From positions 1-24,303 of IMG/VR virus record IMGVR_UViG_3300030061_002257: DNA of 24,303 nt; one strand, written 5' to 3'. This document shows, in pieces, positions 4,619-24,303 of the stretch (its first letter is position 1; each line of letters starts with the position of its first letter). A program made the translations under genes and the position numbers. The notes beneath the pieces are model-generated. The model was not told the DNA's origin. It did not search any database and saw only the letters and a list, made by a program, of their open reading frames with translations. This DNA is from a virus.

Positions 4619-4679
4619 CGCACTCTACGCAACTCTCGGTTAATAAAATAATTATGACTGAAATCATCTTCGGTTAAGA

Positions 4680-5663: not shown

Positions 5664-8600
5664 TTTTATGCTTTCCTTTGCCATGCTTATAATTTTTTAC
5701 TAACTCTCCAGATGTAGCAGTTTCTCCTTCTTCTGGTGTAGAACCATCAGCTTCAAATGCAGTTAATGCTTTATTGTAGAATCTTACTTCATCAAGGCTT
5801 CCTATAAAAAATTGAGTTGTTCCTGTTCTTTTTCCAATATTTAGAACTGCGGGATCATTATCAATAGTAGTTGGGATAGAGGAAGTATTTAATTTTACAA
5901 GAACTGTATCTACATATATCTGTACAGATGTTCCAGAAGTAAGTATCGCACAAACATGATGCCATTTATCATCATCATAAGTACCGCTTGTTTGCGTATT
6001 GCTAAAAGAACCTCCCGAATAATAACCTAATGATATTTTACCATCGATACTTTGAACACTCCAATTTCTATTAGTAGTATCATCTCTGTTGATAACTTGC
6101 TGATACCCACTTCCCATATCTGGTTGTTTCATCCAAAATTCAACAGTAAAACTGCCTTGAATATCAAATGCTTTAGTAATTGGAATACTTAAATGCTCTG
6201 CTAAACCATTTCTACTAAATCTTACTATATTACTTGTTGGATTTGTAAGCGGAAATCCTAATCCATCTTTATTAGAGTTTAATCCCTCACGAATTGTGAT
6301 TGCATCTGGTGTACCCGCAACTATGCCATTGTTGCCTGTGTTAAGTGTAGCTCCTGTAACTGTAAGATTTTTTGAGCCAACTAAATCTGTAACTGTACTA
6401 CCATTATCCATTTTCCAATAATGAGCAATGTTACTATTTCCTACTTCAGATACTTGATGTCCATTATTATAAATAGATTGTATTTCAGATAATGAAAGAG
6501 TTGCAGTATAAAAAGATGCACTAATACATTTAATATTTGCATCGTCACCCGTACTCCAAACTTCTTCACCTATTTTAAATTTTGTTCCTGTTGGTGTAGT
6601 TAAACTTGCTAATGTTTGAGAATATCCATTTCCATTAACATAGACTACAATATCATCACCATTCCAAGAAACTGCAAGGTGGTATAATTGACCAACTGCA
6701 AGAGTAACTCCTGTTACTACCCAATCTGCTCCATAACCAACAAACCTTAATGCTCCACTACTTTGTATTTCTAAACTACGAATAGTTCCTGTTGAAGTAT
6801 TACCACCTACACCAATAAATCTTTGAGTAGTTCCTAAAGCATTAGGAATAATCCAAGTAGATAAAGTTCCTGTGTCTGATTGATGAGAAGTAAAAGATGT
6901 ATTTTCTGCTTTATCGTTTGAGCCATCAAAATTTAAATAACTCCATCCTCTTCTATCTTCCCATGTAGATACACCATCGTTTCGCCAATAGCCAATTAAG
7001 TTATCTTTTTTACTATGTGTAGTAGCATCTAATGCGACACCATCGTTGAATAGTTCTTGTGCTTCTGCATCAGAAAAATGAGTGTTAAATATAGAAAACT
7101 CATCTAATAATCCATCTGACTCCCAAGCTCCATTTAAAGATTGACCAAGATATTGATATTTAAAATCTGATGTATTAGTAAATGAGGCAGTAGATTTGAC
7201 TCCATTTCTATAAGCACTAAATGCTCCGCCTGTTGTTCTTGTTATAACGCAAAAATGAGATTCATTTGCATTTACATTTCCTGTGCCTCCCATACTTCCA
7301 GAAAGTCCGTTAATTCTTATCATAATTCTATGAGCACCTGTAGTATCAACTCTGATTGTATCATCTGTACTATTTTTACCAATCATATGATGCTCTGAAT
7401 TATTAAATGGTGTAAATGAAAAAGCTATAGTAAATGCAGTATTAGCTCCAAGAGTCTGCTCTGTTAAAGAAACATAAGTATTTTTATTTCTATCGAATAT
7501 TGCTTTTTCAGTGTACCTAACCAATGGAATCTGTGGAATGACTGGTTCATTTTGAGCAGTAGTAAAGCCAGTTGAGGATATTCCTATTTCTTTAAGAGAA
7601 AAATTATCAAGCCAAATAGTTGAGTTTTGTCCTCTATGAACATAAACAAAAGTATCAGTTGCGTGTCCAGCTACAAAATCCATTGTTTTAGTAGTAAATG
7701 ATGTTTCAGTAACATCATGGTAGTTAAACCCAGTTGCATCTGACATATTAAGTCTTACATCTCCTGTATCTACTTTTACACTACAACTAAATCTGTAAGT
7801 TGTTCCAACTGTTAAATCAGTCGTTAAATCAAGAGCGTCTGAAAATTTTAAATAAGCACCATTCCCATTTGATGTACTGCAAACTACTTTTATAGCACCA
7901 CTATCATTTGTCATAGTAGCACCCGCATAAGCAACCCAAGAATGAGTACCGCTATCTACTGTACTTGCATCTGCATCAAATAACTCATTCCCAAAGAAAT
8001 TTGTAGTAGCATGGTTGCCCATGAGGACTTCTTGAATAGATAAATCAGATACAGAAAAATTAAAACTGCCACTATCAAGTCTGAATCCAAATAAAAAAGA
8101 ACTCGAAGAAGATGATGGTGTAAAATAGTATGTTTGTAATCCATTAGATGGACTTGTAACTAAAGTGTGATTACCCGAACTCATACTTGTTACTGTTCCA
8201 ACTCTTACAACACCACCAGAAAATGAACCGCTATTTAAAGTAAAATTAAAAGTAATTTTATATGTTTTACCCGCAGTTACACTAAAAACACTCGTATGAC
8301 AAATACCATGCCCAGAAGTATTATCAGCTACTGTAATACTATTACCATCTGATGTTAAAGTTTCAAAAGAATAATTAGTCCATGTTAATGAAGTTGCTAT
8401 ACTACTACCCAACTTCTTCTCACTATGGTCATATACTATTGATTGTGGACTTTCTGGGTTACCCTCAATCATAGGTAGCCACCAAATTAAATTATCTTGT
8501 ACTGCACTTGGTGTGTTTTCTGGGTTTTTGTAAAGTTCTTGTACTTGTGCCTCTGTAAGAGCAGTATCAAATAATTTAAAATCTGTTAAAGTACCATTAA

Positions 8601-9093
8601 AATAATTTGCATTTTGTCTATTTCCTACATAATGAATATTATTAGAGTGAGATGCTAATGTATATGTAGCGGATGTTGTGCTTATTAATGAACCATTTAA
8701 ATATACCTTTACATTTGTTTTATCATAGGTAACAACAAAATGATGCCATACTCCATTTACAAAAGTACCATTATTAAATCCGTTAATTATAATATTATTG
8801 TTTAAATAGATTAAATAACCACTTCCATGTTGCATAATAGATATAGCATTTCTATCATGCTGACTAAAAATAGTTCCTTCTGTTGCAGTAATATCAGCAG
8901 GTTTCATCCATATTGATGATGTAAAATGTGAAGAAGAATCTAATTTATCATGTATGTACGCACTTGTACATTGTAACCCATCTGCTACCCCATCAAATAC
9001 CAATCCTCTACCGCCATATACCTCGGCTCTTGAAGCCACATCTGCTGTAAGTAGTGGCGAACTTGATCTTCCGCTTTGTATCGTTGTAGCCAT
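5656..9093 (-). CDS. Giant fibre/adhesin with four LamG and two jelly-roll modules
   Basis: The product has 1145 residues and is virtually all beta-strand. Four concanavalin/LamG-like lectin modules lie at about 29-188, 525-685, 718-880 and 955-1110, recognised by FDG/NGxxxY strands, W(H)H(F/V) strands (VWHHFVVTYD, KWHHVCAIL) and YVNG loops. Three close with an L(S/T)xxxxQxL/I-type helix (ALTEAQVQELY, HFSDAEAQELF, LSLSEIQSIY). Two carbohydrate-binding-type jelly rolls sit at about 235-356 and 368-503, each ending in an LxIQEV or FSLKEI strand. This is a receptor-binding virion protein, probably for host polysaccharide. It starts in a TAATG overlap with the related 919-residue fibre. The C-terminus is basic (KHGKGKHKND). 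No enzymatic site or chaperone domain is visible. Confidence 0.85.
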   Translation of the reverse strand: MATTIQSGRSSSPLLTADVASRAEVYGGRGLVFDGVADGLQCTSAYIHDKLDSSSHFTSSIWMKPADITATEGTIFSQHDRNAISIMQHGSGYLIYLNNNIIINGFNNGTFVNGVWHHFVVTYDKTNVKVYLNGSLISTTSATYTLASHSNNIHYVGNRQNANYFNGTLTDFKLFDTALTEAQVQELYKNPENTPSAVQDNLIWWLPMIEGNPESPQSIVYDHSEKKLGSSIATSLTWTNYSFETLTSDGNSITVADNTSGHGICHTSVFSVTAGKTYKITFNFTLNSGSFSGGVVRVGTVTSMSSGNHTLVTSPSNGLQTYYFTPSSSSSSFLFGFRLDSGSFNFSVSDLSIQEVLMGNHATTNFFGNELFDADASTVDSGTHSWVAYAGATMTNDSGAIKVVCSTSNGNGAYLKFSDALDLTTDLTVGTTYRFSCSVKVDTGDVRLNMSDATGFNYHDVTETSFTTKTMDFVAGHATDTFVYVHRGQNSTIWLDNFSLKEIGISSTGFTTAQNEPVIPQIPLVRYTEKAIFDRNKNTYVSLTEQTLGANTAFTIAFSFTPFNNSEHHMIGKNSTDDTIRVDTTGAHRIMIRINGLSGSMGGTGNVNANESHFCVITRTTGGAFSAYRNGVKSTASFTNTSDFKYQYLGQSLNGAWESDGLLDEFSIFNTHFSDAEAQELFNDGVALDATTHSKKDNLIGYWRNDGVSTWEDRRGWSYLNFDGSNDKAENTSFTSHQSDTGTLSTWIIPNALGTTQRFIGVGGNTSTGTIRSLEIQSSGALRFVGYGADWVVTGVTLAVGQLYHLAVSWNGDDIVVYVNGNGYSQTLASLTTPTGTKFKIGEEVWSTGDDANIKCISASFYTATLSLSEIQSIYNNGHQVSEVGNSNIAHYWKMDNGSTVTDLVGSKNLTVTGATLNTGNNGIVAGTPDAITIREGLNSNKDGLGFPLTNPTSNIVRFSRNGLAEHLSIPITKAFDIQGSFTVEFWMKQPDMGSGYQQVINRDDTTNRNWSVQSIDGKISLGYYSGGSFSNTQTSGTYDDDKWHHVCAILTSGTSVQIYVDTVLVKLNTSSIPTTIDNDPAVLNIGKRTGTTQFFIGSLDEVRFYNKALTAFEADGSTPEEGETATSGELVKNYKHGKGKHKND

Positions 9094-11852
9094 TATTTTA
9101 ACTCTCCATAATTTGAGGTAACTTTTTTAAGTGTAAAGTTATCTATTGTAAATCCATCACCACTACCCCACTCAAACCAGATTCCATTATCATCTGGAAC
9201 AAAATAAAATGTATTTGTTTGTATACCATATTCAGTAGATGCCACTTTAGCTGAACTTCCCGCGTAATTATATATAGTAATTGGGGTTGTTGTATTATCA
9301 TTATTTCCTTCTGTTATTTCTAAAATATCAAAAGTACCTTTATATAAAGCACCACTTGTAAGTGTTACGCTTTGCCTTAAGCCACCAGAATTTCCAACTC
9401 CATGAACAAGGCTATTATTTACAACACTCATAGCACTACCACCACTTACTGGAGACCAACTTGTTAAATCACCACTTGCAAAGTCTCCATTAGATAATAC
9501 ATTACTACCTAATGTTTCTCCTGTAGTTTCATCCTGTACAAAACTTGTTTCAAATGTAGAGTCCAAGCTCCAGTATCCTACGATGTCGTTAGATACTTCT
9601 TTAATTGATATGTTATCAAGACTAAATGAGGATGATACACTACTTACTAATAATCTAATTTGGTCGTGTGTGCTTGTTGGTGTAACATAAAAAGTATGTG
9701 TTCCAACGCTATATCCCGCATTAGATACTAAAGCATCTGCAAGACTACTTCCGTTATAAGTATTAATTGCAAATGTTGCAGTATTGTCAAATATAGTAAA
9801 AACAATTTTATATAATTTATTTAAAGGTAGTGAAATATTAGAATTGCTTTTCTTAAAATATAAATAAGCAATACTACTATCTGAATATCTTAACCTACCA
9901 TCAGATATAGTAAGTCCAGATAATTGAACTCTCCAATTACTATCATTTGTATCTTCTGATAAATCACTACTAAATGTAGAATCACCAACTAACTCACTAC
10001 CCAATGTACTCTTAACATCTGCGGGTATCTTGGTATAAGAAGTGGATTCCATAAGAGATTGCACTTGGCTTTGAGACAAAACTCCTTGCCAAATTCCTAC
10101 TTGAGCAATATTGCCATCCCAATAATCATGGAGTGAGTTACCATAAAATCTTGCACCAATTTGAATTGTATCAGCATTAGTTGGATTATCAACAGCATTT
10201 TTTTCAGTTATAAATATTCCATTAATATATTGTTTATTTTTTCCATCTCTATCACAAGTATAAACAACATGATGCCATTCACCATTATCAAGATTTGTAT
10301 TTCCTGCTACTTTAGTAGCATGCCCACTTTGTGATGCACCTTCTGCATCAAAATAATCATTAAAATAATGAAGTGTAACACCATGTGTATAATCATTATT
10401 AGTTGCATTTCTTGTACTTACTACCCCAGGATAGCCACTTGAACTAAAATTTGCACCTGTTCTTACCCAAAAAGATATAGTCCAATCATATAAAACAAGC
10501 CCTGTGTTTTTTATTTCTATATAATCAGTATTACTTTGATTAAACAACGCACTACCATTCCCAATCGCTTCTGCTTGTGACTCAGTTATGTCTATTGCAC
10601 GTGGTAAAACTGGTGCATTGCCACCATATACTGTAGGACTATCAGCACTGCCTAAAGTTTGTGTTCCTACAGTTATTCCTGTGCCATACTGCCTTCCATT
10701 ATTTGAACCATGTTGGTCTTTTGCTAATAAATGATATATCTCTAAAGTTGTTGTAAGTGTTTCTCCTTGAGCCATATCGTGCCATCTAAAAAAAGAAGCA
10801 CTTGCTATATTGCTTGGAGCAGTAAAATCATAAATATTACTGCCTTGAGGAAGGTTATCCTCTGTACCATTTACTCTATATCCATATAAGCTTAATCCAG
10901 AAGTAGTTGAATTAATTGAACTGTTTGTAGTCGATATTAATCTATATCTACCCCCAGTATACCAATTAGTTGATGTTCCAGTCATATAAGCTACGTAAGT
11001 ATATAAATATCCACCTCGTGCATAATTACTACCTGACCCTGCAGTTACAGCTATATGAGTTCCCCCAGCATCATCAAAAGTTCCACCACCATAATTATTC
11101 CAATCATCTGCATCATAAAAAACACTTGCTTGATTAAGTAATTGTGTACTGTCTGCAACTTCTTCATCAAGACTCCACCAACTGACTAAATTTGTTTTTT
11201 CTATAGAGCTTAACTGACTGTAAGATTTGTTCATAATAGATTGGACTTCTTCGTATGACAATCCCCTGTTCCAAAGTCCAAAATTGCACATAGAGCCATC
11301 AAAATATTGAGCACCTAAACCCGATTGATGACCTAAAATATTATCTTGTCCACTATTAAACATTGTTCCCGACAATGAACCACCAGCTCCTACTCTTACA
11401 CCATCAATGTACATACACCCAGTAGTACCATCAGCAGTAATGGCAATATGTGTCCATTTCCCTGCAGTAAGCGCACCGTTTTGATAAGCCATATTTGACC
11501 CTGGTCCTCCAGAACCTCCAACATTTACTCTCCACCTTACTGCTCCGCCAGTACCTTCTTGATAAATTGTCATTTCGTGAGTACTCCATATTGAACCAAT
11601 ACCAAATATTGGACCTTCTTCAAGAACGTCTGGTTTTACCCATAAAGATAAACTAAAAGGAAATGAAATATTTAAATCGCCAAAATTTATATAATCATTC
11701 GTACCATCAAAATTTGTCGAACCCTCTGATGGAAATGCAAGTGTGTCTGACCTATTTGATTTAAAGTCTAAATAGAGTTTTAGATTATCTTTTATAAACG
11801 ATAAGCCACCAGATTTTATTCCGCTGATGGCGTTTGCTATGCCTAAAAACAT
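9093..11852 (-). CDS. Fibre/adhesin with two LamG and three jelly-roll modules
   Basis: The 919-residue sister of the downstream 1145-residue protein has the same type of modules. LamG-like lectins lie at about 45-207 (FDGTNDYINFG, KWTHIAITADG, MYIDGVRVG) and 432-603 (EWHHVVYTCDRDG, QYINGIF). Jelly rolls lie at about 245-375, 618-752 and 783-910. The LamG modules end in the same helix motif (LSYEEVQSIM, LSQSQVQSLM). The first 30 residues (MFLGIANAISGIKSGGLSFI) are not lectin-like and may anchor it to the tail. A good SD (AAGGA) precedes the start at 11852, eight bases after the stop of the 88-residue virion gene. It may form one adsorption organelle with its sister. Confidence 0.85.
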   Translation of the reverse strand: MFLGIANAISGIKSGGLSFIKDNLKLYLDFKSNRSDTLAFPSEGSTNFDGTNDYINFGDLNISFPFSLSLWVKPDVLEEGPIFGIGSIWSTHEMTIYQEGTGGAVRWRVNVGGSGGPGSNMAYQNGALTAGKWTHIAITADGTTGCMYIDGVRVGAGGSLSGTMFNSGQDNILGHQSGLGAQYFDGSMCNFGLWNRGLSYEEVQSIMNKSYSQLSSIEKTNLVSWWSLDEEVADSTQLLNQASVFYDADDWNNYGGGTFDDAGGTHIAVTAGSGSNYARGGYLYTYVAYMTGTSTNWYTGGRYRLISTTNSSINSTTSGLSLYGYRVNGTEDNLPQGSNIYDFTAPSNIASASFFRWHDMAQGETLTTTLEIYHLLAKDQHGSNNGRQYGTGITVGTQTLGSADSPTVYGGNAPVLPRAIDITESQAEAIGNGSALFNQSNTDYIEIKNTGLVLYDWTISFWVRTGANFSSSGYPGVVSTRNATNNDYTHGVTLHYFNDYFDAEGASQSGHATKVAGNTNLDNGEWHHVVYTCDRDGKNKQYINGIFITEKNAVDNPTNADTIQIGARFYGNSLHDYWDGNIAQVGIWQGVLSQSQVQSLMESTSYTKIPADVKSTLGSELVGDSTFSSDLSEDTNDSNWRVQLSGLTISDGRLRYSDSSIAYLYFKKSNSNISLPLNKLYKIVFTIFDNTATFAINTYNGSSLADALVSNAGYSVGTHTFYVTPTSTHDQIRLLVSSVSSSFSLDNISIKEVSNDIVGYWSLDSTFETSFVQDETTGETLGSNVLSNGDFASGDLTSWSPVSGGSAMSVVNNSLVHGVGNSGGLRQSVTLTSGALYKGTFDILEITEGNNDNTTTPITIYNYAGSSAKVASTEYGIQTNTFYFVPDDNGIWFEWGSGDGFTIDNFTLKKVTSNYGELK

Positions 11853-11860
11853 TTAAGTCC

Positions 11861-12127
11861 TTAGTATAGAAAAACAATATCACCAGCAGAAACAGCGGAA
11901 GATCCCGCACTATCTGTGGCTACTTTGGTTGGTCGTATCGGTAAGATAGATCCTTCAATTGTATTTTGAAACAACACCCAGGCATCACCCATATAAAAGT
12001 AATAACTTGCCCCTGTTCCGACAAATACTCCTTTTGGTTTTGGCTGTGCTGAAGTGGTAGAAATGCTAACGGCTTTATCAACCGATCCTAAACCCTTTAC
12101 TACGGCTATTGCTGATCCACTTGACAT
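11861..12127 (-). CDS. Small beta-rich virion protein, 88 aa
   Basis: The protein is Ser/Ala/Gly-rich and all-beta (MSSGSAIAVVKGLGSVDKAV...), with a core KPKGVFVGTGASYYFY ... FQNTIEGSILPIRPTKV. The GVFVGT ... G(S/T)ILPIRxTxV pattern is shared by small phage proteins often encoded beside structural genes, which look like decoration or spike subunits. No exact function is known to me. It is the first gene behind an internal promoter (12186-12214), has a clear AAGG SD and directly precedes the two fibres. A fibre adaptor or surface spike is therefore likely. Confidence 0.6.
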   Translation of the reverse strand: MSSGSAIAVVKGLGSVDKAVSISTTSAQPKPKGVFVGTGASYYFYMGDAWVLFQNTIEGSILPIRPTKVATDSAGSSAVSAGDIVFLY

Positions 12128-12215: not shown

Positions 12216-15200
12216 TTAAAACGTCTTTAATCTTACTTTTTTTGAAGATTTATTCTTTTTCTTTTCTTTTTCTTTTCGCTTTGCGTGAAACTTTGCACCA
12301 TTACCAAAATAGTTATAATAAAGCCTTCCTACGATTGGTATATTTTTTGGACTTTCTAAATCTTTTGGTATTTTAAAATCTTTTTTATTTACAGATCTGT
12401 CCAGGTCACGTACAAATGCCTCAAATACTGGATTAAAAACTCCAACAGGAGGTATTACTGCTTTTAATACTGTATACCCTACATTTTTATATCTTCTGTA
12501 ATGCCATATAAGATATTTTTGAAACCCAACTAATCTTAATAAGTTATCTCCTACCATTTCGCTAAAGTCTTGTTCACGTTTATATAAAAAGTTTTTTAAA
12601 GAATCAGATGTTATTCCTGTCATCATAAGCACACCAGCTAAATATATAAGCCTTCTAACGCCTTCTGCTTTTTCTTTTTTAGTTTTACCTTCGTACATTT
12701 TTCTGAATGCTTCGTCACGTAATACATTTAACTGTTTTACTGTATATGTTTTAAGCATATACATAATTCTTCCATTTGGTGCTTTTAAATAATACTCTGG
12801 CATTTCTGTAAGACTTACTGGTTGAAAATCAGATATAGTATAATGAGATAAATACAGTATATTGTCTGTTATTTTACCGTCTTTAAGATCTTGTATTACT
12901 TGCGGTATCTCTTCTTTTGCAAACGCATCGTTTAATCTATCTTGCAATTGTGAGCTAAATTTGCCTTTTACAGCTTGTTTTCTATATTTAGCTATAGTTG
13001 CATTAATTAAACTTTCTTTACCCAGGCTATCAATGTATTTAAGGCCTGTTGCTGTAAATACATTATCAAGTATTTTAGAAAAACTGTCTGTTTCTGTAAA
13101 CTCTTGAGCTATTTTTTCAATACCAATATCTTTGCGTGTTACTTCTGATTTTTGTATTGCAGATCTTCCAGTAGCTTTTAATGTCTCTAACATACCTGCA
13201 TTATATATTGACCAGGCAAAATCTCCAATTTGAGTAATAGCACTTGATAACTGCCCCATTGTAAATAAATAACTACTGCTTCTAAGATTTGCAACACGTG
13301 GATCCATAATGCCTTGAGCAAAGCGAATACGAAATAAATTTACAAGTTCATCTTGTTGATGTGATTTAATTATGCCTTGCTCTAATAATTTATCTACATA
13401 TTCACCTACAACATTGTCATCTACCTGGACATTTATATCTTTACTACCCATGTCCTTACCAAAAAATCTTTTGATTTCTATCGCTTCATTCATTTGTACA
13501 ATGTATTTATGTAAAGCGGTATTACTGTCATAATAAAATTCATTTAAATCACTATCTAAATATTCTATTTCTCGTTCTTTAAGGTTTCCTGGTCTTTGTA
13601 TACCAAGCCTTCCACCAAACCCACGTATTAAATTGTTTATTAATTTAAGTCTTTCTTCTTTTTCTAATCTGCGACCAAGCTCTTTTTCTTTTGCTTTTAT
13701 ATTGCTTTGAATAATTCCCCAGCTATCTGTTGTTTCTAAATAAGACATAAGTCCATCAGCATCTTTTATTTTACGTGGGAAATAATCACTTAAATAGTTT
13801 GGCTCATACCCAACGCTTTCAGATCTTTTGTATATACTATCGAGCATATTACGTAGCTTTACAAATTCATGTTTCATGCCGTGGCGTTTTAATACTTCTT
13901 GCGTTACACTAAAGTCACTATTTTTTAATGCCAGATCTAATACTGCATAATGTTTTTTATTCTTTTTTCTTAGCTTATCTGTCATTTTAATAAAGTTTTC
14001 TGCAATGGCTAAATCTTTTGCTGTGTTTATATCTACACTATACTGAAATCTTCTTATAGCACGTTTTAATTCTGGATTAATAAGCCTTAATCTGGTTGAT
14101 AAAGGAGTAAGGGCTTTACTAATTAATCCTGGCGTTTTACGTATGCTTTTACGCTCTTTTGCAATGTCTAATGGAGATTTTATTTTTACATTATCATATA
14201 TTTTTTGCGGTACTTTTGGTGCTTCTTTTTTTGATTTTTTAGAAGGAGGTAGGTCAAACATTGGTATGTCATCACTAAGATCCATTATTTTTCTTTCTGG
14301 ATCATAACCCCATTCATGCAAAGCATTACCTTCTGTAAATATTTCTTTTGCCTTTACTTTTTTTTGTAAAATCTTATATCCATCCAAATGTCTTTTACCG
14401 TGTTCAGTAGCGTATTCTTTTGTAATTGACACCCAATCTCCTGGATTAATCTCTACATCTTTTACATTTGGAACGGCTCTATATATTATAACTTCTGCTT
14501 CTGGATTACCTCTCATTTTACGCATTATAGATATTGCTTTATTATCATAACTTAGAAACGTACCATAATACCTGGCACCATTTGCTCCATATATATCATC
14601 GGGATATACACTACTTACATCATCGCCACTGTTTGCGTAACCAACTTCATATGTTGGTGCTTTATGCACACCTCTGTAATCAGCCTCTTCAATTCTACCC
14701 AAAGCAAAAAGTTTTCGAGGTTTAAACTCTAATCTCCCAGGCATATGTTTTCTTTTTAATCCGTGTTGAGCAACACCATATATGTAATTTTTCTTTTTAT
14801 CATAATCATTATAAAGATAAGCATCTGTGATAAAACTATCCTTAATTAGTCTTTTAAAAACTCTTTCTAACTCAAAATGATTTGTTTCTAAAGAGTGAAG
14901 TCTTGATTTATCAACAGCAAGAAATATTCTTTGACCTCCGTAATCTCGTGCAATTTTTCTTATTTGTGCTTTAAGTCTTGCCATACCAAAACCGAATCTA
15001 TGAGTTTGACCTACTTTTATAAATTGAGATAAAGGTATATCTACCAAACCTTTCATATGTAATGAATAGTCAGTAGCAAATATTGACACAACATCATCTA
15101 TTCCTTCAAAGGCTTTTAAAATTTTTGGTATACTTTTGTAAGTAACTATCTTTCTAAAATCATCACCGTGCATTTTATCTGAAAAAAGGTCACTAAATTC

Positions 15201-18200
15201 TTTTTTATGCAACGGATCATCTATTATATCGCTTACTTTTTGCATAGATAGCCCTTCATCAGTTGCAGTAATTGGCTTATTCGTTAAAAGATCAAGCATT
15301 TTTATTGTGCCATTTTTTTCTATTAATCCATATTTATTGTGATTTAATATTATATGACCTTTAAATCCTGGCAATCTTTTTTTAACCCATTTTGTAAACC
15401 TAACATCTCCTTTACTTGCAATAACCTTTCCAGAAGGATGATTGTGCATTAGAAAATATCCATCCGCTTTGCTTTTCATCATTATTTCAGCCATATATGA
15501 TGTAAAATCACTGTAACCACTTATACCTAATTCTGGAACATTCCACGGTGATACAAAACCAGGCATTCTGTTTGATATGGAAGTATACTGTACGATTTTA
15601 TCCTTACCGCCTGGTTGTTTTTTTGTGTAAAATATTCTAAGAGTTTCAAATCGCCTGTCTCTTGCGACTTGAGATATAGTAGCTAAGTCTTGGGGGCTTG
15701 TGATTTGTTTTCCGATAAAGTGACTTGCTCCGACTTTTTCCATCGGTTTAAGTATGGAGGAAGCTCGTTCGGTAATCCCAAGTTGTTGTCGCAACCTGGA
15801 TACGGTACTCTTTGCCTCTTTTGCTTTTTCTTTATCTTGTTTTGTTGCATTTTCACGAAATAGGTCTAATTGACTTCTATTTTTCAAGTTTAAGTACAAT
15901 TGATCATTAATATCAAGTAAATAAGGAAGTGATATTGTAGCACCTTTTACAGGTGGATCTATTTTTTGTATTTGCTTTACAATGTCTTTGTACTTTTGCT
16001 CTATAAGTTTTTTCTGCTTTTTAACTGTTATTGCATTTACCGTACCTTGAGCAGATTGATCCATTAAATACTTAAATTCTTTATTAGACAATCTCAACTG
16101 TTCGTACAAATCATTTAATATTTCTTTATCTTTTTTACTTATGTCTGGCAATATATCTCTACCACCAAACATATTATACTGTTCTACCTCTTCAAACAAT
16201 CCACCTTGATTAGGATCTGGTTTACTGGACTCTTCTATTAAAGTATTTAATTCTTTTCTTAAATTGTTTTTTTGCTTTCTAAGGTCGCTTTTTATACTCG
16301 TTAAAGCATCTACGTCATTAATGTCTTTTTCTTGCTGTAAACGGTCAATTTCACGCTGTAAATAACGCTTATCGTTTAATTGTTTATCAATGTTTTCAAT
16401 TGATTTTTTTATATCGTTTATTTCTTGTAATACTTCATCTGGCGTACCATCTTTTGGCTTTAAAGGATCTCTGCGTAATGCTTTTAAAATACTTCCTGGT
16501 CTTTCATCTCTGGTATGCTGTCTGTAACGCATTAATTTTTCTAACGTATTGTCTAAACTTAGTTTCCAATCTTCATTGTCTTGTTTAATACCAGCTTCCG
16601 TATATAAATATGTAAATATATCATCTTCATACTGATCTGGCATCCAATCATATTTTTTACGTAATGCACCTACATATTGAGATGTGCTTTGTATACGAGG
16701 AAATTCATTTATACTTTCGTAATTCTCACGAAACTTACCTTTAGCATCTAAATAACTAAGATTAAGCACTTTAGATATAGCTGTTTGCTGACCAGCACTG
16801 CTTTTTGCTTTTGTAAGCCCTGGTAAATCTTTAGCAATTTGTACTAAAGAATCTCCCCTATCAAATCTTCTTCTTACAATACTGCTATTTTCAAATGCTG
16901 ATTGCTCTGTCCTGGCAAGATTGCCTTCTTCAGACATATTAATCGCTTCTTCAATTGTTGTGCCTTTTGGTAATACTTTATATGTTGCCGATTCATACCC
17001 ACCCTTTACAACACCTTGATGTCTGTGATGTCCAGACACAACAAAGTATTTATTTGTTTTAGGATCTTGCCACAATATTGGTTCATCCCATTTCTTTTTA
17101 TCAAAATTCTTTGCAATATCGTCTATAACAGACTGGTTATATTCTTCTCTGGGTTGAAATTTTGACTCATCAATATTAATATTTTTAGGTTTTAAGCTAA
17201 CGCTAACAAGACCAGTTGCTTCTTCTTTTTTTGGCTGTACTGCTATTTCTTTTTTTGATTTTAATTTATTTTTAAATGATTTAATTAAAGCAGTACCTTC
17301 ATCAGATACAGTCATACCAAAACTGATATTATCGCTATTTAGTTCAAAATCTTGTGCAATTTTATTTAAAATACCAGTTGCTAAACCTTGTCTTTGATAT
17401 TCTTTTGTAACAAAAATATTATCTATTTGATGTTTTCCCGATGCAGTTACATCTGGTCTAAAAACTTCTGCTTTTGCAATTATATCGCCTTTTTCATTTA
17501 CTTGGTAATATACTTCGCCTTCTCCGCTCTCTAATCCTTCTTTATATATTTTTTGATCAACAGGAGGTATTTTAATTGACTTTACTTCTTCTTTTTTTGG
17601 TTCTAATTTTTCGGGTACCGACTTATCCAACTTTTTCGTTGAGGGCGTTTTATCGGGGGCTGGTCGATCGACAGGCATCGATTGTTGGGTAGGTTGGATA
17701 TTCGGATTATTAACAGCTTTTATACTGTTTGCTAATATATCTTCCCTTTCCTTTGTTGTAAAATTCACAAACTGTTTTTCTGTATAGCCTAATGCTTTCA
17801 TCTTATCAAGCTGTTCACCCATAGGTGCTTTTACAAGATCATCTTTTGATACTTTTACATCCTTGCCAGTTATAGGTACTTCTACAGCTTCTTTTTTCTG
17901 TTGTGATTTTTGCTGTAGCATTGAAGTTTTACGCTGATTTGCTATTTGTCTTATCTTAGATATAGAGCCTTTAGGATCATTTGACATAATAAACCTGGAT
18001 AAAAACTCTTCTGTTTGTTTTTCTATGTCTTTTGCAGATACACCTTTACCATATAATTCATTTGCAAAATCTTCAACGACTTTTGTGTATTGTTTTTGCT
18101 GTATCTTGGTAAACGCTTTTTTACCAGCATTTACTCTCATAGTTTGAATTAAAGAGAAAATATCATCAGCTTGTTTTACAAAGTCTTTTACAGCAAACTG

Positions 18201-19388
18201 CCTATCTATTTCAGTAACATTTTTATTGTTTAATAAACCAAAACCAGCAAACAGTAGACCATTTAGCAATGCTTCTTCTGTTGTAGCACCTTCCATTAAT
18301 TTCGAGGTTACAAAACCATAAGTTCCATCAGCCAATGCTCTTGCACCTCTGTTCGCAATATTACCTGTAAGACCAAAACCAGCTCCAAATATAGCATTTT
18401 CTGTAATTATTAATGCTTTTTCATCTATTGGAGAATCTTCGTCTATTTGATTTACGAGACTATAAGCTCCGAATGTACCAGCACCAGTAGTTGCACCTGT
18501 TGTAAATCTTTGTATTTTTGAACCAGTAACTCCTTTATTTTTTAAAATATTACCAAGTTTTGTGCTGGATATTTTTCTTCCTAAATCAACACCAATTTGA
18601 GTTAATTTACCTGGATCTCTTCTAAAAGTTTCCTCAAGTATTTTACCGCCTTTTCGTATAGTCTCTCCTGTTTTTACTAATTTTGGAGCATTTAAAAAAG
18701 CATTAAAACCTACAAAGCCTGTTAATGTTCCACCTACTTGTGCTAATGCATCACGTACAGGAGTAAATGTTTGCTCTGCTTGTTCTCTTGGTGTGAGTCC
18801 ACCAATTGGTATAGCAGTTGTTAAAAAATTACCTACATCTCTTGCGAGTGAAGGATTCAATATACCTCTTTTACGTAAATCATTTATTGTCTGATCACGT
18901 GCTACTTCTTCTTTTGTTTTCCCTGGTATCGGATAACTACCACCAGACATCGGATCAATTACATTTCTACCTGGTACTTCTTTTGCTGTTTCTAATTTTT
19001 TTTGATATGTTTCGTCAAAATCTTTCTGAATTTTTTCCATTTCAACATAAAACTCTAACTCATCATTGTTTAATTCTTGTATATCACCTCTTGGCTGACC
19101 AATGCTAAAACGGCTTTGAGATTGAAATGGTTGTTGTACTGGTTGATATGTTTGATTTAATACTGTTTCTTGTACCTCTGGAGCTTCTTGCTCAACACTT
19201 TTTTCAATACTTTGTATTTCTTTTAATTTTTTTACAGGATCTTCACTATTTATAATAGCATCGTTTCTTGCTTGTTGTATTCGTTGATACCCATCTCTTT
19301 CAGCTTGGATTTCATCTATTATATCATCAATACTATTTCTATACAGACGTACTTCTGTATCTTGTTCGTACAGGCTTTTATTTGCCAT
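12216..19388 (-). CDS. Giant polyvalent virion protein with GNAT, ParB-like, RadC/JAB and ART-like domains
   Basis: The product has 2390 residues. In order: a charged, Gln-rich N-terminus; glycine-rich hydrophobic segments (about 185-385) that could enter a membrane; a GNAT acetyltransferase (about 612-712, Q665-R-Q-G668-L-A670); and a ParB-like domain (about 740-875, SGHHRHQG at 785-792). Then come a coiled coil (about 985-1055); a RadC-type JAB/MPN domain (about 1218-1368) with a full metal motif, H1315, H1317, S1325, D1328; and an R-S-E type ADP-ribosyltransferase-like segment (about 1590-1705; R1637, S1654, E1692 in HEWGYDP). A long helical C-terminus (about 1740-2350) ends basic. Such fusions are known as polyvalent proteins, thought to enter the host with phage DNA and act on host defences. 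Its T7 gene 16-like position fits an ejected protein. Confidence 0.85.
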   Translation of the reverse strand: MANKSLYEQDTEVRLYRNSIDDIIDEIQAERDGYQRIQQARNDAIINSEDPVKKLKEIQSIEKSVEQEAPEVQETVLNQTYQPVQQPFQSQSRFSIGQPRGDIQELNNDELEFYVEMEKIQKDFDETYQKKLETAKEVPGRNVIDPMSGGSYPIPGKTKEEVARDQTINDLRKRGILNPSLARDVGNFLTTAIPIGGLTPREQAEQTFTPVRDALAQVGGTLTGFVGFNAFLNAPKLVKTGETIRKGGKILEETFRRDPGKLTQIGVDLGRKISSTKLGNILKNKGVTGSKIQRFTTGATTGAGTFGAYSLVNQIDEDSPIDEKALIITENAIFGAGFGLTGNIANRGARALADGTYGFVTSKLMEGATTEEALLNGLLFAGFGLLNNKNVTEIDRQFAVKDFVKQADDIFSLIQTMRVNAGKKAFTKIQQKQYTKVVEDFANELYGKGVSAKDIEKQTEEFLSRFIMSNDPKGSISKIRQIANQRKTSMLQQKSQQKKEAVEVPITGKDVKVSKDDLVKAPMGEQLDKMKALGYTEKQFVNFTTKEREDILANSIKAVNNPNIQPTQQSMPVDRPAPDKTPSTKKLDKSVPEKLEPKKEEVKSIKIPPVDQKIYKEGLESGEGEVYYQVNEKGDIIAKAEVFRPDVTASGKHQIDNIFVTKEYQRQGLATGILNKIAQDFELNSDNISFGMTVSDEGTALIKSFKNKLKSKKEIAVQPKKEEATGLVSVSLKPKNINIDESKFQPREEYNQSVIDDIAKNFDKKKWDEPILWQDPKTNKYFVVSGHHRHQGVVKGGYESATYKVLPKGTTIEEAINMSEEGNLARTEQSAFENSSIVRRRFDRGDSLVQIAKDLPGLTKAKSSAGQQTAISKVLNLSYLDAKGKFRENYESINEFPRIQSTSQYVGALRKKYDWMPDQYEDDIFTYLYTEAGIKQDNEDWKLSLDNTLEKLMRYRQHTRDERPGSILKALRRDPLKPKDGTPDEVLQEINDIKKSIENIDKQLNDKRYLQREIDRLQQEKDINDVDALTSIKSDLRKQKNNLRKELNTLIEESSKPDPNQGGLFEEVEQYNMFGGRDILPDISKKDKEILNDLYEQLRLSNKEFKYLMDQSAQGTVNAITVKKQKKLIEQKYKDIVKQIQKIDPPVKGATISLPYLLDINDQLYLNLKNRSQLDLFRENATKQDKEKAKEAKSTVSRLRQQLGITERASSILKPMEKVGASHFIGKQITSPQDLATISQVARDRRFETLRIFYTKKQPGGKDKIVQYTSISNRMPGFVSPWNVPELGISGYSDFTSYMAEIMMKSKADGYFLMHNHPSGKVIASKGDVRFTKWVKKRLPGFKGHIILNHNKYGLIEKNGTIKMLDLLTNKPITATDEGLSMQKVSDIIDDPLHKKEFSDLFSDKMHGDDFRKIVTYKSIPKILKAFEGIDDVVSIFATDYSLHMKGLVDIPLSQFIKVGQTHRFGFGMARLKAQIRKIARDYGGQRIFLAVDKSRLHSLETNHFELERVFKRLIKDSFITDAYLYNDYDKKKNYIYGVAQHGLKRKHMPGRLEFKPRKLFALGRIEEADYRGVHKAPTYEVGYANSGDDVSSVYPDDIYGANGARYYGTFLSYDNKAISIMRKMRGNPEAEVIIYRAVPNVKDVEINPGDWVSITKEYATEHGKRHLDGYKILQKKVKAKEIFTEGNALHEWGYDPERKIMDLSDDIPMFDLPPSKKSKKEAPKVPQKIYDNVKIKSPLDIAKERKSIRKTPGLISKALTPLSTRLRLINPELKRAIRRFQYSVDINTAKDLAIAENFIKMTDKLRKKNKKHYAVLDLALKNSDFSVTQEVLKRHGMKHEFVKLRNMLDSIYKRSESVGYEPNYLSDYFPRKIKDADGLMSYLETTDSWGIIQSNIKAKEKELGRRLEKEERLKLINNLIRGFGGRLGIQRPGNLKEREIEYLDSDLNEFYYDSNTALHKYIVQMNEAIEIKRFFGKDMGSKDINVQVDDNVVGEYVDKLLEQGIIKSHQQDELVNLFRIRFAQGIMDPRVANLRSSSYLFTMGQLSSAITQIGDFAWSIYNAGMLETLKATGRSAIQKSEVTRKDIGIEKIAQEFTETDSFSKILDNVFTATGLKYIDSLGKESLINATIAKYRKQAVKGKFSSQLQDRLNDAFAKEEIPQVIQDLKDGKITDNILYLSHYTISDFQPVSLTEMPEYYLKAPNGRIMYMLKTYTVKQLNVLRDEAFRKMYEGKTKKEKAEGVRRLIYLAGVLMMTGITSDSLKNFLYKREQDFSEMVGDNLLRLVGFQKYLIWHYRRYKNVGYTVLKAVIPPVGVFNPVFEAFVRDLDRSVNKKDFKIPKDLESPKNIPIVGRLYYNYFGNGAKFHAKRKEKEKKKNKSSKKVRLKTF

Positions 19389-19992
19389 CTTTACTAAAAT
19401 ACCTCTTTGTTGATAATCTTGCTAAATACTTTGCTTTTTCTGGGTTTATACCAGGAATACTAAAAAACTTATACAATTCTTCTTCTTTATCTCTAACAGC
19501 TTTATTTCGCTTTGCTTCTTGAAAACTAATTCCTTTTTTCTTTGCTCTTTGTGCAAGTTCTAAGTCTGACTTAACCTCTGATACACGCTCTGCACCTATG
19601 TTATAAGGAGAACCTGGCGTTCCTTTTTCATTATACATTGGATTGTCAATATCTACATCTCTTCCAGTAAATGGTATTTTTAAACCGAATGCTCTTCTTG
19701 GTACATTTTTCAATGTCATTTTTCTATCTTCGAGTCCTGGAACAATTGGTTCTTGTTTTGCATTTAATATTTTACCACGTGCAGTTTTGTATTCACCAAG
19801 TAAACGATCAACAGCATCAGCTCCAGACTCTGGAGTTTCTTTCTTTGCTATCTCTTTTGCTTCGCTTTTTATACGTGCTTTTTCTTTTTCCTCTTTAAGT
19901 TTTCTTTTGTATCGAGTTTTACCTTCTTCGTCAAAGGCTTTTTCCATCTTTTTCATTAACTCGTTTACATTAATTTTTTGTATTTCTGCCAT
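19378..19992 (-). CDS. Charged, mostly helical protein, 204 aa, probably virion/ejection-associated
   Basis: The N-terminal third is extremely Lys/Glu-rich helix (KKMEKAFDEEG ... KRKLKEEKEKARIKSEAKEI). A middle section holds Pro/Gly turns (PGLEDRKMTLKNVPRRAFGLKIPFTGRDVDI). A second helical part follows (ERVSEVKSDLELAQRAKKKGI) and ends KYLARLSTKRYF. I recognise no family. It has a strong SD (GGAAGGAAAA) and starts two bases after the preceding gene. It overlaps the polyvalent gene by 11 bases, so the two are coupled. By position it corresponds to the small internal or scaffold-like genes next to T7 gene 16. That is positional inference only. Confidence 0.6.
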   Translation of the reverse strand: MAEIQKINVNELMKKMEKAFDEEGKTRYKRKLKEEKEKARIKSEAKEIAKKETPESGADAVDRLLGEYKTARGKILNAKQEPIVPGLEDRKMTLKNVPRRAFGLKIPFTGRDVDIDNPMYNEKGTPGSPYNIGAERVSEVKSDLELAQRAKKKGISFQEAKRNKAVRDKEEELYKFFSIPGINPEKAKYLARLSTKRYFSKDGK

Positions 19993-19994
19993 AG

Positions 19995-20621
19995 TTATTT
20001 TCCTTCCTCAAAGAATTGTGGATACTGAGTTTGAAGAAATTTTAACCTTGTCATAAACTGTTCTTTGTCATTTGCACTATTAAGAAATCCAATCATTTCT
20101 GTTCTATCAGCACGTAAATTTTTAGCTTTTAATTTTGACTCACTATCTAATCCACCAGCGATACCACTTGCGGTATCTAATCCAGCAGTAAGAAGTCCTA
20201 TACCTGCTTGTCTGCGTTCTGCCTTATCTTGATCTAATCCTCTGGCGTATTGCATTCTGGCATCTGATTTAGCTCTTTCTTCGCTTTGAAATATATCTCT
20301 ACCAGTGTCTGCTACGGTTCTTCTAACATCCGCTTCAGCTTCTCTAAGCCCACGTTGTGCCGATACACTACCTTGCATACCTCTATTAATTAAACCGCCC
20401 ATATATCGCCTATTTGCAAGGGCTGATTGCCTACTGGCTGTCCTGGATACATTGCCAATAATTCCTGTTTCTTGGCCTTTGGACAATGCTCCATCTCTTT
20501 TAATCTGTTTGAGCTGTCTGCCATATGCAGTATTGCCAAATTTTGGTTGCAAAAGCCGAGATCCAGTCTTGATACCTTGACTGGCTCCTTTTAATAATAT
20601 TCCTAATGTTATTGGATCCAT
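19995..20621 (-). CDS. Helical protein resembling a T7 gp14-type internal protein, 208 aa
   Basis: The N-terminus MDPITLGILLKGASQGIKTG, rich in small residues, resembles the start of short-tailed-phage internal or ejection proteins. A long Arg/Ala/Gln/Gly-rich helix follows (RTASRQSALANRRYMGGL, VSAQRGLREAEADVRR, RGLDQDKAERRQAGIGLLTAG), then a Gly-rich hinge and a C-terminal helix (FMTRLKFLQTQYPQFFEEG). No TM helix as strong as T7 gp14's is visible. A GGAG SD sits in the end of the upstream nozzle-like gene, three bases away. The order nozzle, this gene, charged protein, giant protein favours an ejection-complex role, but I cannot name a family. Confidence 0.6.
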   Translation of the reverse strand: MDPITLGILLKGASQGIKTGSRLLQPKFGNTAYGRQLKQIKRDGALSKGQETGIIGNVSRTASRQSALANRRYMGGLINRGMQGSVSAQRGLREAEADVRRTVADTGRDIFQSEERAKSDARMQYARGLDQDKAERRQAGIGLLTAGLDTASGIAGGLDSESKLKAKNLRADRTEMIGFLNSANDKEQFMTRLKFLQTQYPQFFEEGK

Positions 20622-20624
20622 GAG

Positions 20625-23600
20625 TTACTCCATTTCAATTTGTAATCTTTCTAAGGTTAATGCGTTTGTGCTACTGGCTGTAGCTATCTCCACTTCAAAT
20701 TTCTTTGCATAGCGTTTGATTGGAAATCTGTTGATGCCACCATTCGCTGAAATTGTTTTTGTAAACGATGCAGACGTTGCTCCATCTAAATAAATATTGT
20801 AGGTTAAATCATCTGTTCCAGTAAATTGTACGGTGCCGTATCTAAGTAGTCTTTTACGGTGCAAATCAAGGGGAAAACGCTTACTTTTCCACTTAGCCAC
20901 ACTTGCATTCGCTGTGTCAAATTTGATGATTTTATTGCTTGTTTTATCATAGTTAAGTGGCACTCCTGTTTCGTCATACGCTAAGATGTCCAACACTCCT
21001 GTACCCATATCAATTTTACGCCAGGACTCACGTACATAATTGTACGCCCATACACGCTGAGTATTGCCTTCCATCCATTTATAAATAACTTCTTGCCTAC
21101 TTGGATCATACAGACCTTTTATTGCTGTTTTATCTGTAGCAAGTAAAAATTGATCATCTATTTTATCGGATACTTTATCCATTACAGATGGTGTTGCTGT
21201 TGAACTGGCTACCATATTACTGGTTACTCTGTAGATACCATCGTGATATACAAAATAAATACTGTCATGTACTTCGACTACGCCTTGCGGTGCTACGTTG
21301 CCTATATTATGCTTAGACTCTACAACAGACCAGCCGTTTGGATTGGCAGGATCAGATACGTTTAGAATAAATATAGCTTGTGGTTTAAAAATAACCAGTC
21401 TGCCAAAAAGTACAGCAAGACCAGTAATATCTCCACCTTCTCTGTCATCAAATGCAATTACATTACTTACAGGAATTGTGTCAAACTCATTTAACTCGCT
21501 GTATGCAATCCAATCTCTATGTTCCTCCGCTTTATCTTCTGGATTTAGTACAACATTCCCCAAAAATAATCTGCCTTTCAATTCTCTGGCGTATTGACCA
21601 TTTACTCTATTGCTGTATATTGTTTGTACTGGAGTCTCTCCTAAATCTTCTAATCTAAAATCTCTGCACGTAATTGTAATTTTATTAGAATCTTTTTTAT
21701 ACCCTACTCCTGGCGTTGTAGATCCCTGGGCTGTAGATACGCTAAATCCTTCTAACAATTGTCCTGTAAAATTATAGTTAGATCCTTTTGCTACTGCTTC
21801 TGTCGCTTTTACCCATACACCGCCAAGATCAGATTGATATGCACTGTTTCCTTCTATCTCAAATGATTTTTCTCCTGCAAAAACCATCGATCCAGACAAC
21901 TGATTCTGCGTTATATTATTTGGATAATCTGTAGCAAAATTATGAATGCGTAAAAATCCAACAGCAGAACCGCCATAAGCTCCATTGCTATTATTTTTTA
22001 CTGTAGAATAACTACCGTATGACTTTTCCTTTATTTTCCAACTTGATCCATTAAAATTGCCACTATCATCTAAAAATGTATTGTTAAACCCAGCATCATT
22101 ATCGCAATCAAGTTGAACATAATTAACAATTGGAACTTTTAATAACGTACTATTATTATTGTGAGCCACATTAGAAGTAGCTGAACTTATTGCCACATCT
22201 GCGTATGTGATTGCCTGTCCACGTGAAATAAGAACAATATACTCCCCATTGACAACATTACGAATTTTTATATTTGCATTTGAAATTGAGCTGTCTGTTG
22301 CATCTGGCGTACCTGTCATTAATGTAACATTAGTATTCGTATCATGTTGTAAAGCTGTAATCGTTATATTTACAGAATTATTACCAATAGCAACAACATC
22401 ACCTACTTTTATATAATCAGATGCTTCATTATTTGTATCGTCTATGTAAAATTCTTTTGATGTTCCAGATTGTGAACTTGTTCCAGAAGTTAATTGAAAA
22501 GGTATTTCTACTCCTGTTGCATACGGAAGTGATTGTAAAGCTGATGCAGTAGTCTGTACACCTTCAGCATCGATTAAATATTTTGAGCTATTTGCAATGT
22601 TTGTATTTGAATTAACAATCATATATGTTTGATTGTTTGTCATTTTTCGCACAGTTCCAGAATTAAGAAATGTAAGATTTAATTTATCTTCACCTTCAAA
22701 AGCATTATCAATACCGTCAAAACCACCACTTACATCAACAGCGTGTTTATTATTACCTAAAAACTCACTATAATTAAGTCCGACTATTGAACTTACTTCA
22801 GACTGATTTGCAACTTTTATATGAATAATATCATCTTTAAAAAAGTCTCCACTCACTTCCTTTAATGATCCCACACTGCTTAAATCATTACTGCTATCAA
22901 CAAAAGTCATATGCCCTATTAGTTGATAATTACTGTATATACCTGCATTCCCTATAGCTCTGTAAAAATTAATGCCTGTAATACGCTTATTTAAGTTGTT
23001 GATATTTGCAATTTCTACTTCAAGTTCATGTATAGCTTTATTTGTATTATTATCTGTAATAACAAGCTCATCACCTTTATCAAATAAACTTTCCTGGATA
23101 CCATCATAAATAGCTGTGCAATTGTATTTTAGCGTATCTCCGCTATGAATAACATTACTTGTTTTATACGTTTTTGCTAATGTCACTTTAAATGGATTAT
23201 TTAACGTGTTTACGTATCCATACCAATTTGCTGGTATAGTATAGTCTCCGTTAAACATTGATCTATTAATATAGCCAAGCCATAGCCCTTTTGCTTCTGT
23301 GTTGGATACCTTACCAATTGCTCCAGGAATAAATCGTACTGTATCTCCTGTTGGCACAATTGGATTTTTATCGGTTTGATGGTATATGGTCGGTGTTGTG
23401 CTGGAGTTATCTTCCGCTATTTCATAAAAATTATATTTGCTGTGTAGATCAGTCCAGCCATAATCTACTGTACCTGTACCAGCCCAGGTTCCAGATCCCC
23501 ATCCTATGTCTGTCATACGAATTAATGAGGCTCTTGGATTATTTGATGTATCTGTATATTCAACGCCATACGCTTGGATATAGGCTTTAGCGTGTTCAAA

Positions 23601-24303
23601 GAATTGATTACCAGAAGTAGCACCAGTTACAACATCATCTATACACGTTGGATTCCAGCCTTTATATGTATCATTAGCATTATCATTTAAAGATACTACT
23701 GTTTTACTTACATCTATTCTGTATACTCTGCCATGTACCATGCCACTTCCAAAAGATCCACTATCGTTTGTGCAAACCATTAAATATTTTGTACCGCTGG
23801 GATGCCTATATGCGTTTTTAATTGCTTCAATTACTGTGGATGTGGTAAAAATAGATCCATTAATATCTGCAAATCCTAATATTACAGTAGCATCATTATG
23901 GGTACTATATTGTAAAAACTTGTCACCATTACTTCGTTCATAATATTTAATAATAGATTCATTCTTATTGCTATTTTCACCAAAGTCCATTTTGGTAAGT
24001 AAATGAAGTTGGTTACCATAACTTGTATTTCCCCAAGTAGCTAAATTATCATTTAAATCAATATAATGCAGTTTATGGTTTGTTGCATTTGATTCACCTA
24101 AAACTAAATATTCTTTATTACCATTAACAGTATTCGTAATTGATGTCATTCCTCGCCAAGTATACCCAGATGTATTTGCAGGTACTCCAGCTACTTTCGT
24201 TACCGCATCTCCCCCAGTGCTTGTGGTAATTTTAAATAACGATTCATCTCTTATTAAAAGATAAAGAAATCCAGTTCCTGCCTCATAAAAATATGCTTCA
24301 TTA
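20625..24303 (-). CDS. Tail nozzle / stabilisation-like beta-propeller protein, 5' end outside window
   Basis: The frame stays open from the stop at 20625 to the right edge. The ATG at 24149 is internal, since 51 further codons (NEAYFYEAGTGFLYLLIRD...) precede it, giving at least 1225 residues. The C-terminal third carries the hallmarks of short-tailed-phage nozzle (T7 gp12) and stabilisation (P22 gp10) proteins: NRVNGQYARELKGRLFLGNV, WIAYSELNEFDTIPVSN, GDITGLAVLFGRLVIFKP, then YFVYHDGIYRV and YDPSRQEVIYKW, all beta-propeller blades. The middle is a large beta-rich insertion with Ser/Asn/Thr repeats. It would close the portal vertex and form the tube through which DNA and internal proteins pass. 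It is unusually long: T7 gp12 has about 800 residues and P22 gp10 about 470. Confidence 0.75.
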   Translation of the reverse strand, partial: NEAYFYEAGTGFLYLLIRDESLFKITTSTGGDAVTKVAGVPANTSGYTWRGMTSITNTVNGNKEYLVLGESNATNHKLHYIDLNDNLATWGNTSYGNQLHLLTKMDFGENSNKNESIIKYYERSNGDKFLQYSTHNDATVILGFADINGSIFTTSTVIEAIKNAYRHPSGTKYLMVCTNDSGSFGSGMVHGRVYRIDVSKTVVSLNDNANDTYKGWNPTCIDDVVTGATSGNQFFEHAKAYIQAYGVEYTDTSNNPRASLIRMTDIGWGSGTWAGTGTVDYGWTDLHSKYNFYEIAEDNSSTTPTIYHQTDKNPIVPTGDTVRFIPGAIGKVSNTEAKGLWLGYINRSMFNGDYTIPANWYGYVNTLNNPFKVTLAKTYKTSNVIHSGDTLKYNCTAIYDGIQESLFDKGDELVITDNNTNKAIHELEVEIANINNLNKRITGINFYRAIGNAGIYSNYQLIGHMTFVDSSNDLSSVGSLKEVSGDFFKDDIIHIKVANQSEVSSIVGLNYSEFLGNNKHAVDVSGGFDGIDNAFEGEDKLNLTFLNSGTVRKMTNNQTYMIVNSNTNIANSSKYLIDAEGVQTTASALQSLPYATGVEIPFQLTSGTSSQSGTSKEFYIDDTNNEASDYIKVGDVVAIGNNSVNITITALQHDTNTNVTLMTGTPDATDSSISNANIKIRNVVNGEYIVLISRGQAITYADVAISSATSNVAHNNNSTLLKVPIVNYVQLDCDNDAGFNNTFLDDSGNFNGSSWKIKEKSYGSYSTVKNNSNGAYGGSAVGFLRIHNFATDYPNNITQNQLSGSMVFAGEKSFEIEGNSAYQSDLGGVWVKATEAVAKGSNYNFTGQLLEGFSVSTAQGSTTPGVGYKKDSNKITITCRDFRLEDLGETPVQTIYSNRVNGQYARELKGRLFLGNVVLNPEDKAEEHRDWIAYSELNEFDTIPVSNVIAFDDREGGDITGLAVLFGRLVIFKPQAIFILNVSDPANPNGWSVVESKHNIGNVAPQGVVEVHDSIYFVYHDGIYRVTSNMVASSTATPSVMDKVSDKIDDQFLLATDKTAIKGLYDPSRQEVIYKWMEGNTQRVWAYNYVRESWRKIDMGTGVLDILAYDETGVPLNYDKTSNKIIKFDTANASVAKWKSKRFPLDLHRKRLLRYGTVQFTGTDDLTYNIYLDGATSASFTKTISANGGINRFPIKRYAKKFEVEIATASSTNALTLERLQIEME

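Follow-up and report, generated by a model that had tools for sequence, protein, structure and literature searches.

What is a single phage protein of 2390 amino acids, encoded among virion genes and carrying several enzyme-like domains, made for? The question is raised by the giant protein (P0001) of the uncultured virus IMGVR_UViG_3300030061_002257, whose whole IMG/VR record of 24,303 bases, with one long minus-strand gene block, was analysed here and is referred to as the window. A sequence-only reading had assigned the protein to the polyvalent class and had described four effector-like domains, i.e., a GNAT fold, a ParB-like domain, a RadC/JAB domain and a segment resembling an ADP-ribosyltransferase (ART) of the R-S-E type. 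The four were recovered in this order, the first three by slice-wise Pfam scans (GNAT, ParB_N, RadC), and comparison with PHROGs added a ParB-like match and a match of residues 1568-1699. The phage is probably temperate and short-tailed, and we consider its giant to be probably a polyvalent protein that is ejected and in which a conserved scaffold would carry exchangeable effectors. The polyvalent class is already known (Iyer et al. 2017; PMC5512222); new here are the occurrence of RadC in such a protein of the phage type, a predicted tandem pair of an active and a pseudo-JAB domain, an unnamed candidate effector module, and cassette swapping.

The giant protein is encoded by one intact open reading frame (ORF; positions 12216-19388, minus strand, as for all features of the window below unless noted), and the plus strand over the same interval is rich in stops. 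The ORF starts with an ATG at position 19388, has AAAGAGGT about 12 nt upstream, and overlaps the upstream neighbour gene by 11 bp. Full-length homologues of 2407-2698 amino acids are encoded by five IMG/VR contigs (L002, L003, L004, L005 and L008); together with the giant of the window they constitute six full-length proteins of one uncultured lineage. The architecture is not a product of chance, since the homologues keep the domain order and the backbone and the ratio of nonsynonymous to synonymous substitutions (dN/dS) indicates purifying selection, and thus maintenance, of every segment (0.05-0.09 in the C-terminal region, 0.06-0.10 in ParB and 0.10-0.41 elsewhere). A search of viral contigs with the full-length query gave no match. 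C-terminal, N-terminal and JAB queries each recovered the same five contigs, to which the N-terminus added one partial sequence, so that within IMG/VR the giant scaffold seems to be confined to a single small lineage. The C-terminal alignment search of genome contigs yielded no relative, and the nearest matches in reference phages span merely 5-9% of the giant protein.

The backbone common to the six proteins consists of the N-terminus, the ParB-like domain, a coiled-coil-like linker, two JAB domains (JAB1 and JAB2) and the C-terminus, and it contains two slots. Slot A, located between a Pro/Lys linker (at about residues 580-610) and ParB, holds GNAT only in the window and is empty or filled with short inserts in the relatives. 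Slot B, located between JAB2 and the C-terminus, holds the R-S-E-like module alone in the window and L008, the same module plus ART-PolyVal in L005, and GNAT plus ART-PolyVal in L003 and L004 (by Pfam) and in L002 (by alignment); the ART-PolyVal matches in the relatives have Pfam E-values of 9e-13 to 2e-18. All four domains had been read as effector-like, but we do not regard them as equivalent effectors: ParB and both JAB domains belong to the conserved backbone, whereas GNAT and ART domains are exchanged. Residues 181-400 exist as two alleles, one in the window, L004 and L008 (78-79% identity between the window and the other two) and one in L002, L003 and L005 (55-58% identity to the window). 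The C-termini group differently, L005 with L008 at 97-98% identity and L002-L004 together; since the grouping of the relatives changes with the segment compared, the identities point to recombination among the giant genes and thus to a mosaic ancestry.

The conserved N-terminal region (residues 1-600; 17589-19388) shares 53-68% identity with the relatives and shows two weak hydrophobic stretches in its hydropathy profile (about residues 212-232 and 326-384). It is followed by the GNAT acetyltransferase domain (residues 620-706; 17271-17531), the cassette of slot A. Its assignment was confirmed by a slice scan, in which Acetyltransf_1 matched residues 620-681 with an E-value of 1.3e-6 and 29.1 bits (curated cut-off 20.7), and by the acetyl-CoA motif (Q/RxxGxG/A), which is present as QRQGLA within QRQGLATG. 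The ParB-like domain, including a downstream helical part (residues 723-965; 16494-17222), is supported by phrog_1033, a ParB-like partition protein of PHROGs (E-value 3.2e-6), and by the sequence SGHHRH, which is invariant among the full-length relatives; the ParB_N match (residues 738-800) has an E-value of 3.4e-4 and, with 21.0 bits, lies below the curated Pfam cut-off of 26.3. The coiled-coil-like linker (residues 966-1210; 15759-16493) is a charged, heptad-like sequence, as judged by eye. An insertion of about 80 residues in this linker, found only in L002 (giant ORF 3863-11956) and L008 (4706-11926), is possibly a third exchangeable slot. The C-terminal region (residues 1723-2390; 12219-14222) is the most conserved part of the protein (68-75% identity to the relatives). 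It is predicted to be all-alpha, contains hydrophobic segments at residues 2247-2265 and 2303-2325 with a mean Kyte-Doolittle hydropathy of just 1.1-1.3, and ends in a basic tail, RKEKEKKKNKSSKKVRLKTF, with a net charge of +11 over the last 26 residues. The linkers and the basic, helical C-terminus are therefore as the sequence-only reading had described them.

JAB1 (residues 1222-1365; 15294-15725) is the RadC/JAB domain of that reading, and its intact HxH-x7-S-x2-D motif was borne out. Pfam RadC matched residues 1301-1339 above the curated cut-off (E-value 3.3e-6), and a profile search matched RadC (PDB 2qlc) with an E-value of 7.5e-5. The motif is complete (H1315-N-H1317-x7-S1325-xx-D1328), and its H, H, S and D residues are invariant, together with E1248, in 6/6 full-length proteins. 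A deubiquitinase-like action, as had been suggested, was rejected because the domain is of the RadC type; JAB domains of this type have been argued to be devoid of the groove for the ubiquitin tail, their more likely substrates being nucleic acids or nucleotides (Iyer et al. 2017; PMC5512222).

A second JAB-fold domain, JAB2 (residues 1413-1539; 14772-15152), follows the Pfam RadC domain immediately and had been overlooked. An AlphaFold2 model of residues 1395-1720 comprises two domains, JAB2 and the ART-like module. The model of JAB2 matches RadC 2qlc with a Z-score of 10.7 and a root-mean-square deviation of 2.9 Å over 110/124 residues, followed by many JAB/MPN proteins. A profile-profile comparison of JAB1 and JAB2 gave no match, so that JAB2 is recognisable by fold alone. 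In relation to RadC, JAB1 thus has the full motif and JAB2 the fold without the ligands: neither HxH nor S-D metal ligands are present in JAB2 of any of the six full-length proteins, and JAB2 is predicted to be a pseudo-enzyme. Pairs of active and inactive JAB/MPN proteins are known, such as Rpn11-Rpn8 and BRCC36-KIAA0157, and by analogy JAB1 and JAB2 may form such a pair in cis. The likeness lies in the combination of a presumably active and a ligand-less JAB fold; the difference is that both are arranged in tandem on one polypeptide in the phage.

The second cassette, in slot B, is the R-S-E-like ART-type module (residues 1569-1699; 14292-14684). Residues 1568-1699 match phrog_2579 (E-value 5e-34), which is labelled 'ParB C-terminal domain' in PHROGs; this label was rejected because solo forms of the module occur without ParB and because the fold differs. 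Five residues do not vary across 35 homologues (R1637, E1692, H1575, Y1600 and W1652), while position 1654 is occupied by T in 23, by S in 9 and by A in 3 of them (T/S in 32/35). R1637 is located in a YRAVP strand and is followed by GDW[VI][TS] and the terminal invariant E, an order resembling that of ARTs. Residues 1584-1697 of the AlphaFold2 model match KptA/Tpt1, which are members of the ART superfamily, with Z-scores of 5.6-6.2 over 70-74 residues; the Foldseek E-value is not significant. Among the structural matches listed, those that cover the module belong to KptA/Tpt1; a classical R-S-E toxin-type ART is not among them, although absence from this list is not exclusion. An ART-type module is therefore plausible by fold and motif, without sequence homology to a known ART family. 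Of the claimed ART-like R-S-E segment, the Arg and Glu (invariant) and the S/T (usual) were borne out and a KptA-like fold is suggested by the model, whereas a link to a known ART family at the sequence level did not emerge. Alternatively, the module might not be an ADP-ribosyltransferase at all but an unrelated, small enzyme of the alpha/beta type with a likeness to the C-lobe of KptA. This would explain why a sequence link to every ART family searched is missing, why the structural match, with Z-scores of 5.6-6.2, covers about 70 residues, and why the S/T position is not strictly kept, but we regard it as somewhat unlikely in view of the KptA/Tpt1 matches, the ART-like order of the invariant residues, and the fact that the module fills a slot that holds a curated ART in relatives.

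Scanning located the module at 67 or more loci of uncultured viruses, and a solo form of 129 residues occurs in mycobacteriophage Pumpkin, where it lies outside the virion genes. Among viral structures, the module significantly matches phage proteins that are mostly uncharacterised and up to 44% identical. A pattern search of bacterial and archaeal genome contigs gave just four matches with similar patterns; as far as such a search can tell, the module seems biased towards viruses. Among 26 large module-bearing proteins, 9 also contain ART-PolyVal, and others carry LPD22/23/38, Kinase-PolyVal, GNAT, SLT or MuF. Four giant phage proteins of 3381 to more than 4100 amino acids (L027, L032, L074 and L075) have the module in the middle of the protein and a domain content that is mostly unassigned. 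ART-PolyVal is comparable in being a phage ART that occupies the same slot in relatives, but it is of the H-Y-D type, and the module has no profile similarity to ART-PolyVal or to the Pfam ART models. T4 Alt is a phage ART that is packaged and injected; the module, known here from sequence and a model, is likened to it as a putative ART. In contrast to both, it comprises about 130 residues with an invariant set of its own (YRGxHxAP, RAVP, GDW, YAxxHG and HExG). Alt/VIP2 and N4-type ARTs fused to MuF have been described, and about 44% of phage ARTs occur in head-packaging contexts (Iyer et al. 2022; PMC9503650). We refer to the module as an unnamed candidate effector, as it has no Pfam or NCBIfam model; it might belong to one of the 16 families of that study.

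By domain content and gene position the giant fits the polyvalent class as previously claimed. Polyvalent proteins are large, combine several disparate enzyme domains and are encoded in late or virion gene locations, and the published list includes ART, GNAT, ParB-type and RadC domains (Iyer et al. 2017; PMC5512222). The giant combines more than two such domains in one polypeptide (GNAT, ParB-like, RadC/JAB, JAB2 and ART-like). It differs by containing RadC and the R-S-E-like module although it is a phage protein, by a ParB that matches the general ParB_N model, and by the additional JAB fold.

The virion-gene position was also confirmed, the giant gene being located among late and structural genes in the window and the relatives, within a cluster of tail genes that are tightly spaced. 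Directly upstream are genes for a 204-residue protein (19378-19992), which is in the position of gp15 by synteny alone and occupies the same place in relatives, a 208-residue protein (19995-20621), in the position of gp14 by size and synteny alone, and a large protein (20625-24302) that is open at the contig end, in the position of tail tubular or stabilisation proteins, with homologues in all five relatives. This upstream tail protein gave no match to reference phages, and no sequence similarity of the small upstream genes to known ejection proteins was found. In the longest relative (L017), the order is terminase, portal, likely scaffold, capsid, a 237-residue gene, a long tail protein, proteins of about 258 and about 226 residues, the giant, and a fibre (LamG), which resembles the order gp11/12-14-15-16-17 of T7. 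With the ejection proteins gp14-gp15-gp16 of T7 and those of P22 the giant shares its place in the gene order with respect to the portal, tail and fibre genes, the largest protein being last, and with gp16 a basic C-terminal tail and a C-terminal part that is predicted to be helical; the enzymatic N-terminal domain of gp16 is swappable among phages, like the slots here (PMC8954989). It differs by its size, which is about twofold larger, by the lack of a detected peptidoglycan hydrolase, and by the lack of detectable sequence similarity. A profile search likewise gave no match of the giant to gp16-like ejection proteins. Of the three-gene cluster of the gp16 type, the order and the 208-residue gene agree (gp14 has about 200 residues; PMC8954989); the middle gene encodes just 204 residues.

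These likenesses would also agree with a giant that is primarily an internal core or ejection-channel protein analogous to gp16, with enzyme-like domains that are mostly structural or vestigial. The location after a small protein pair and ahead of the tail fibre genes, the basic tail with weak hydrophobic C-terminal segments, as for gp16 (PMC8954989), and the C-terminus as the most conserved region all speak for it, yet we consider it improbable because GNAT, JAB1 and the R..E module have kept their catalytic residues, cassettes are swapped among relatives rather than decaying, and purifying selection acts on all segments. Genes in other phages bear on the location of the protein. In L025, the module is a separate ORF of 378 residues that is flanked by a 597-residue ORF and, directly downstream, by the gene for an internal virion protein (phrog_6651); a second internal virion protein (phrog_418) is encoded two genes ahead of the module. 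A phrog_418 protein also precedes the module by two genes in L059, where the module is part of a 1433-residue ORF. This adjacency, together with the position of the giant gene in a tight tail cluster and its overlap with the upstream neighbour, makes it very unlikely that the giant is absent from the virion and is made late or in lysogeny to act in the producing cell, e.g., against superinfecting phages or packaging-directed immunity, although the genome is probably a temperate one and has an integrase, the solo ART-like module of the mycobacteriophage lies outside the virion genes, and countering packaging-directed immunity has been named as an alternative (Iyer et al. 2022; PMC9503650).

As an ejected polyvalent protein, the giant would be produced late, at the same time as the head and tail proteins, enter the head and leave it with or before the DNA. 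The N- and C-terminal regions and the basic tail may serve in packaging and translocation, a role suggested by their conservation and by a gene position like that of gp14-gp15-gp16. Once in the cytoplasm, the ParB-like domain and the presumably active RadC-type JAB with its metal-less partner would act on nucleic acids or nucleotides, the target of this core being either the incoming genome or host defence, while the two slots would hold exchangeable effectors, here GNAT and the R-S-E-like ART, that modify host macromolecules. Several points weigh against this reading. Packaging, ejection and all enzymatic activities are deduced from sequence and context. The 208-residue protein has no detectable similarity to internal virion proteins of the phrog_418 (gp14) type, and the counterpart of gp15 has 204 residues, compared with 431-982 for known gp15 proteins (PMC8954989). 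The structural model of the C-terminal region is all-alpha and of low confidence (predicted local distance difference test 46), too poor for fold comparison. A Pfam/NCBIfam scan of 43 module members gave no relevant match, profile searches linked the module neither to ART-PolyVal nor to PDB sequences, and its match to KptA, with a Z-score of about 6, is middling support for an ART.

Tentatively, the giant could be a phage counterpart of polymorphic toxins, i.e., an injected carrier, conserved in its terminal scaffold, ParB and tandem JAB pair, with two docking slots. The cassettes of these slots, the R-S-E-like ART family among them, would be exchanged by recombination between phages, and elsewhere they would be encoded by genes of their own in the ejection cluster. 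Should ejected proteins prove to be modular carriers with exchangeable effectors, a comparison of slots across relatives would be a direct way to learn what is delivered by phages upon entry and which targets or defences of the host are important. The module of about 130 residues is common in uncultured phages, yet it has no Pfam or NCBIfam model and is labelled 'ParB C-terminal domain' in PHROGs.

The remaining genes of the window include a tyrosine integrase (1632-2591, plus strand; Phage_integrase, E-value 4.2e-12) and a small, excisionase-like protein with HTH_17 (607-792), which make it probable that the phage is temperate; a 236-residue gene without assigned function (915-1625, plus strand) lies beside the integrase. 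A 159-residue endolysin (2805-3284) contains Glyco_hydro_108 and a peptidoglycan-binding domain, and a 100-residue protein (3284-3586) with a weak DUF736 match (0.0029) has a shorter counterpart in L017. A RecE-like exonuclease (phrog_434, 5e-68) is encoded upstream of the packaging genes in L017 (3952-4878, plus strand). In the tail-fibre position of the window are two proteins of 1145 (5656-9093) and 919 residues (9093-11852), each with several Laminin_G_3 (concanavalin-like lectin) domains. The relatives have single proteins of 874 to 1513 residues in this position, and these differences in number and size suggest that the receptor-binding part changes fast.
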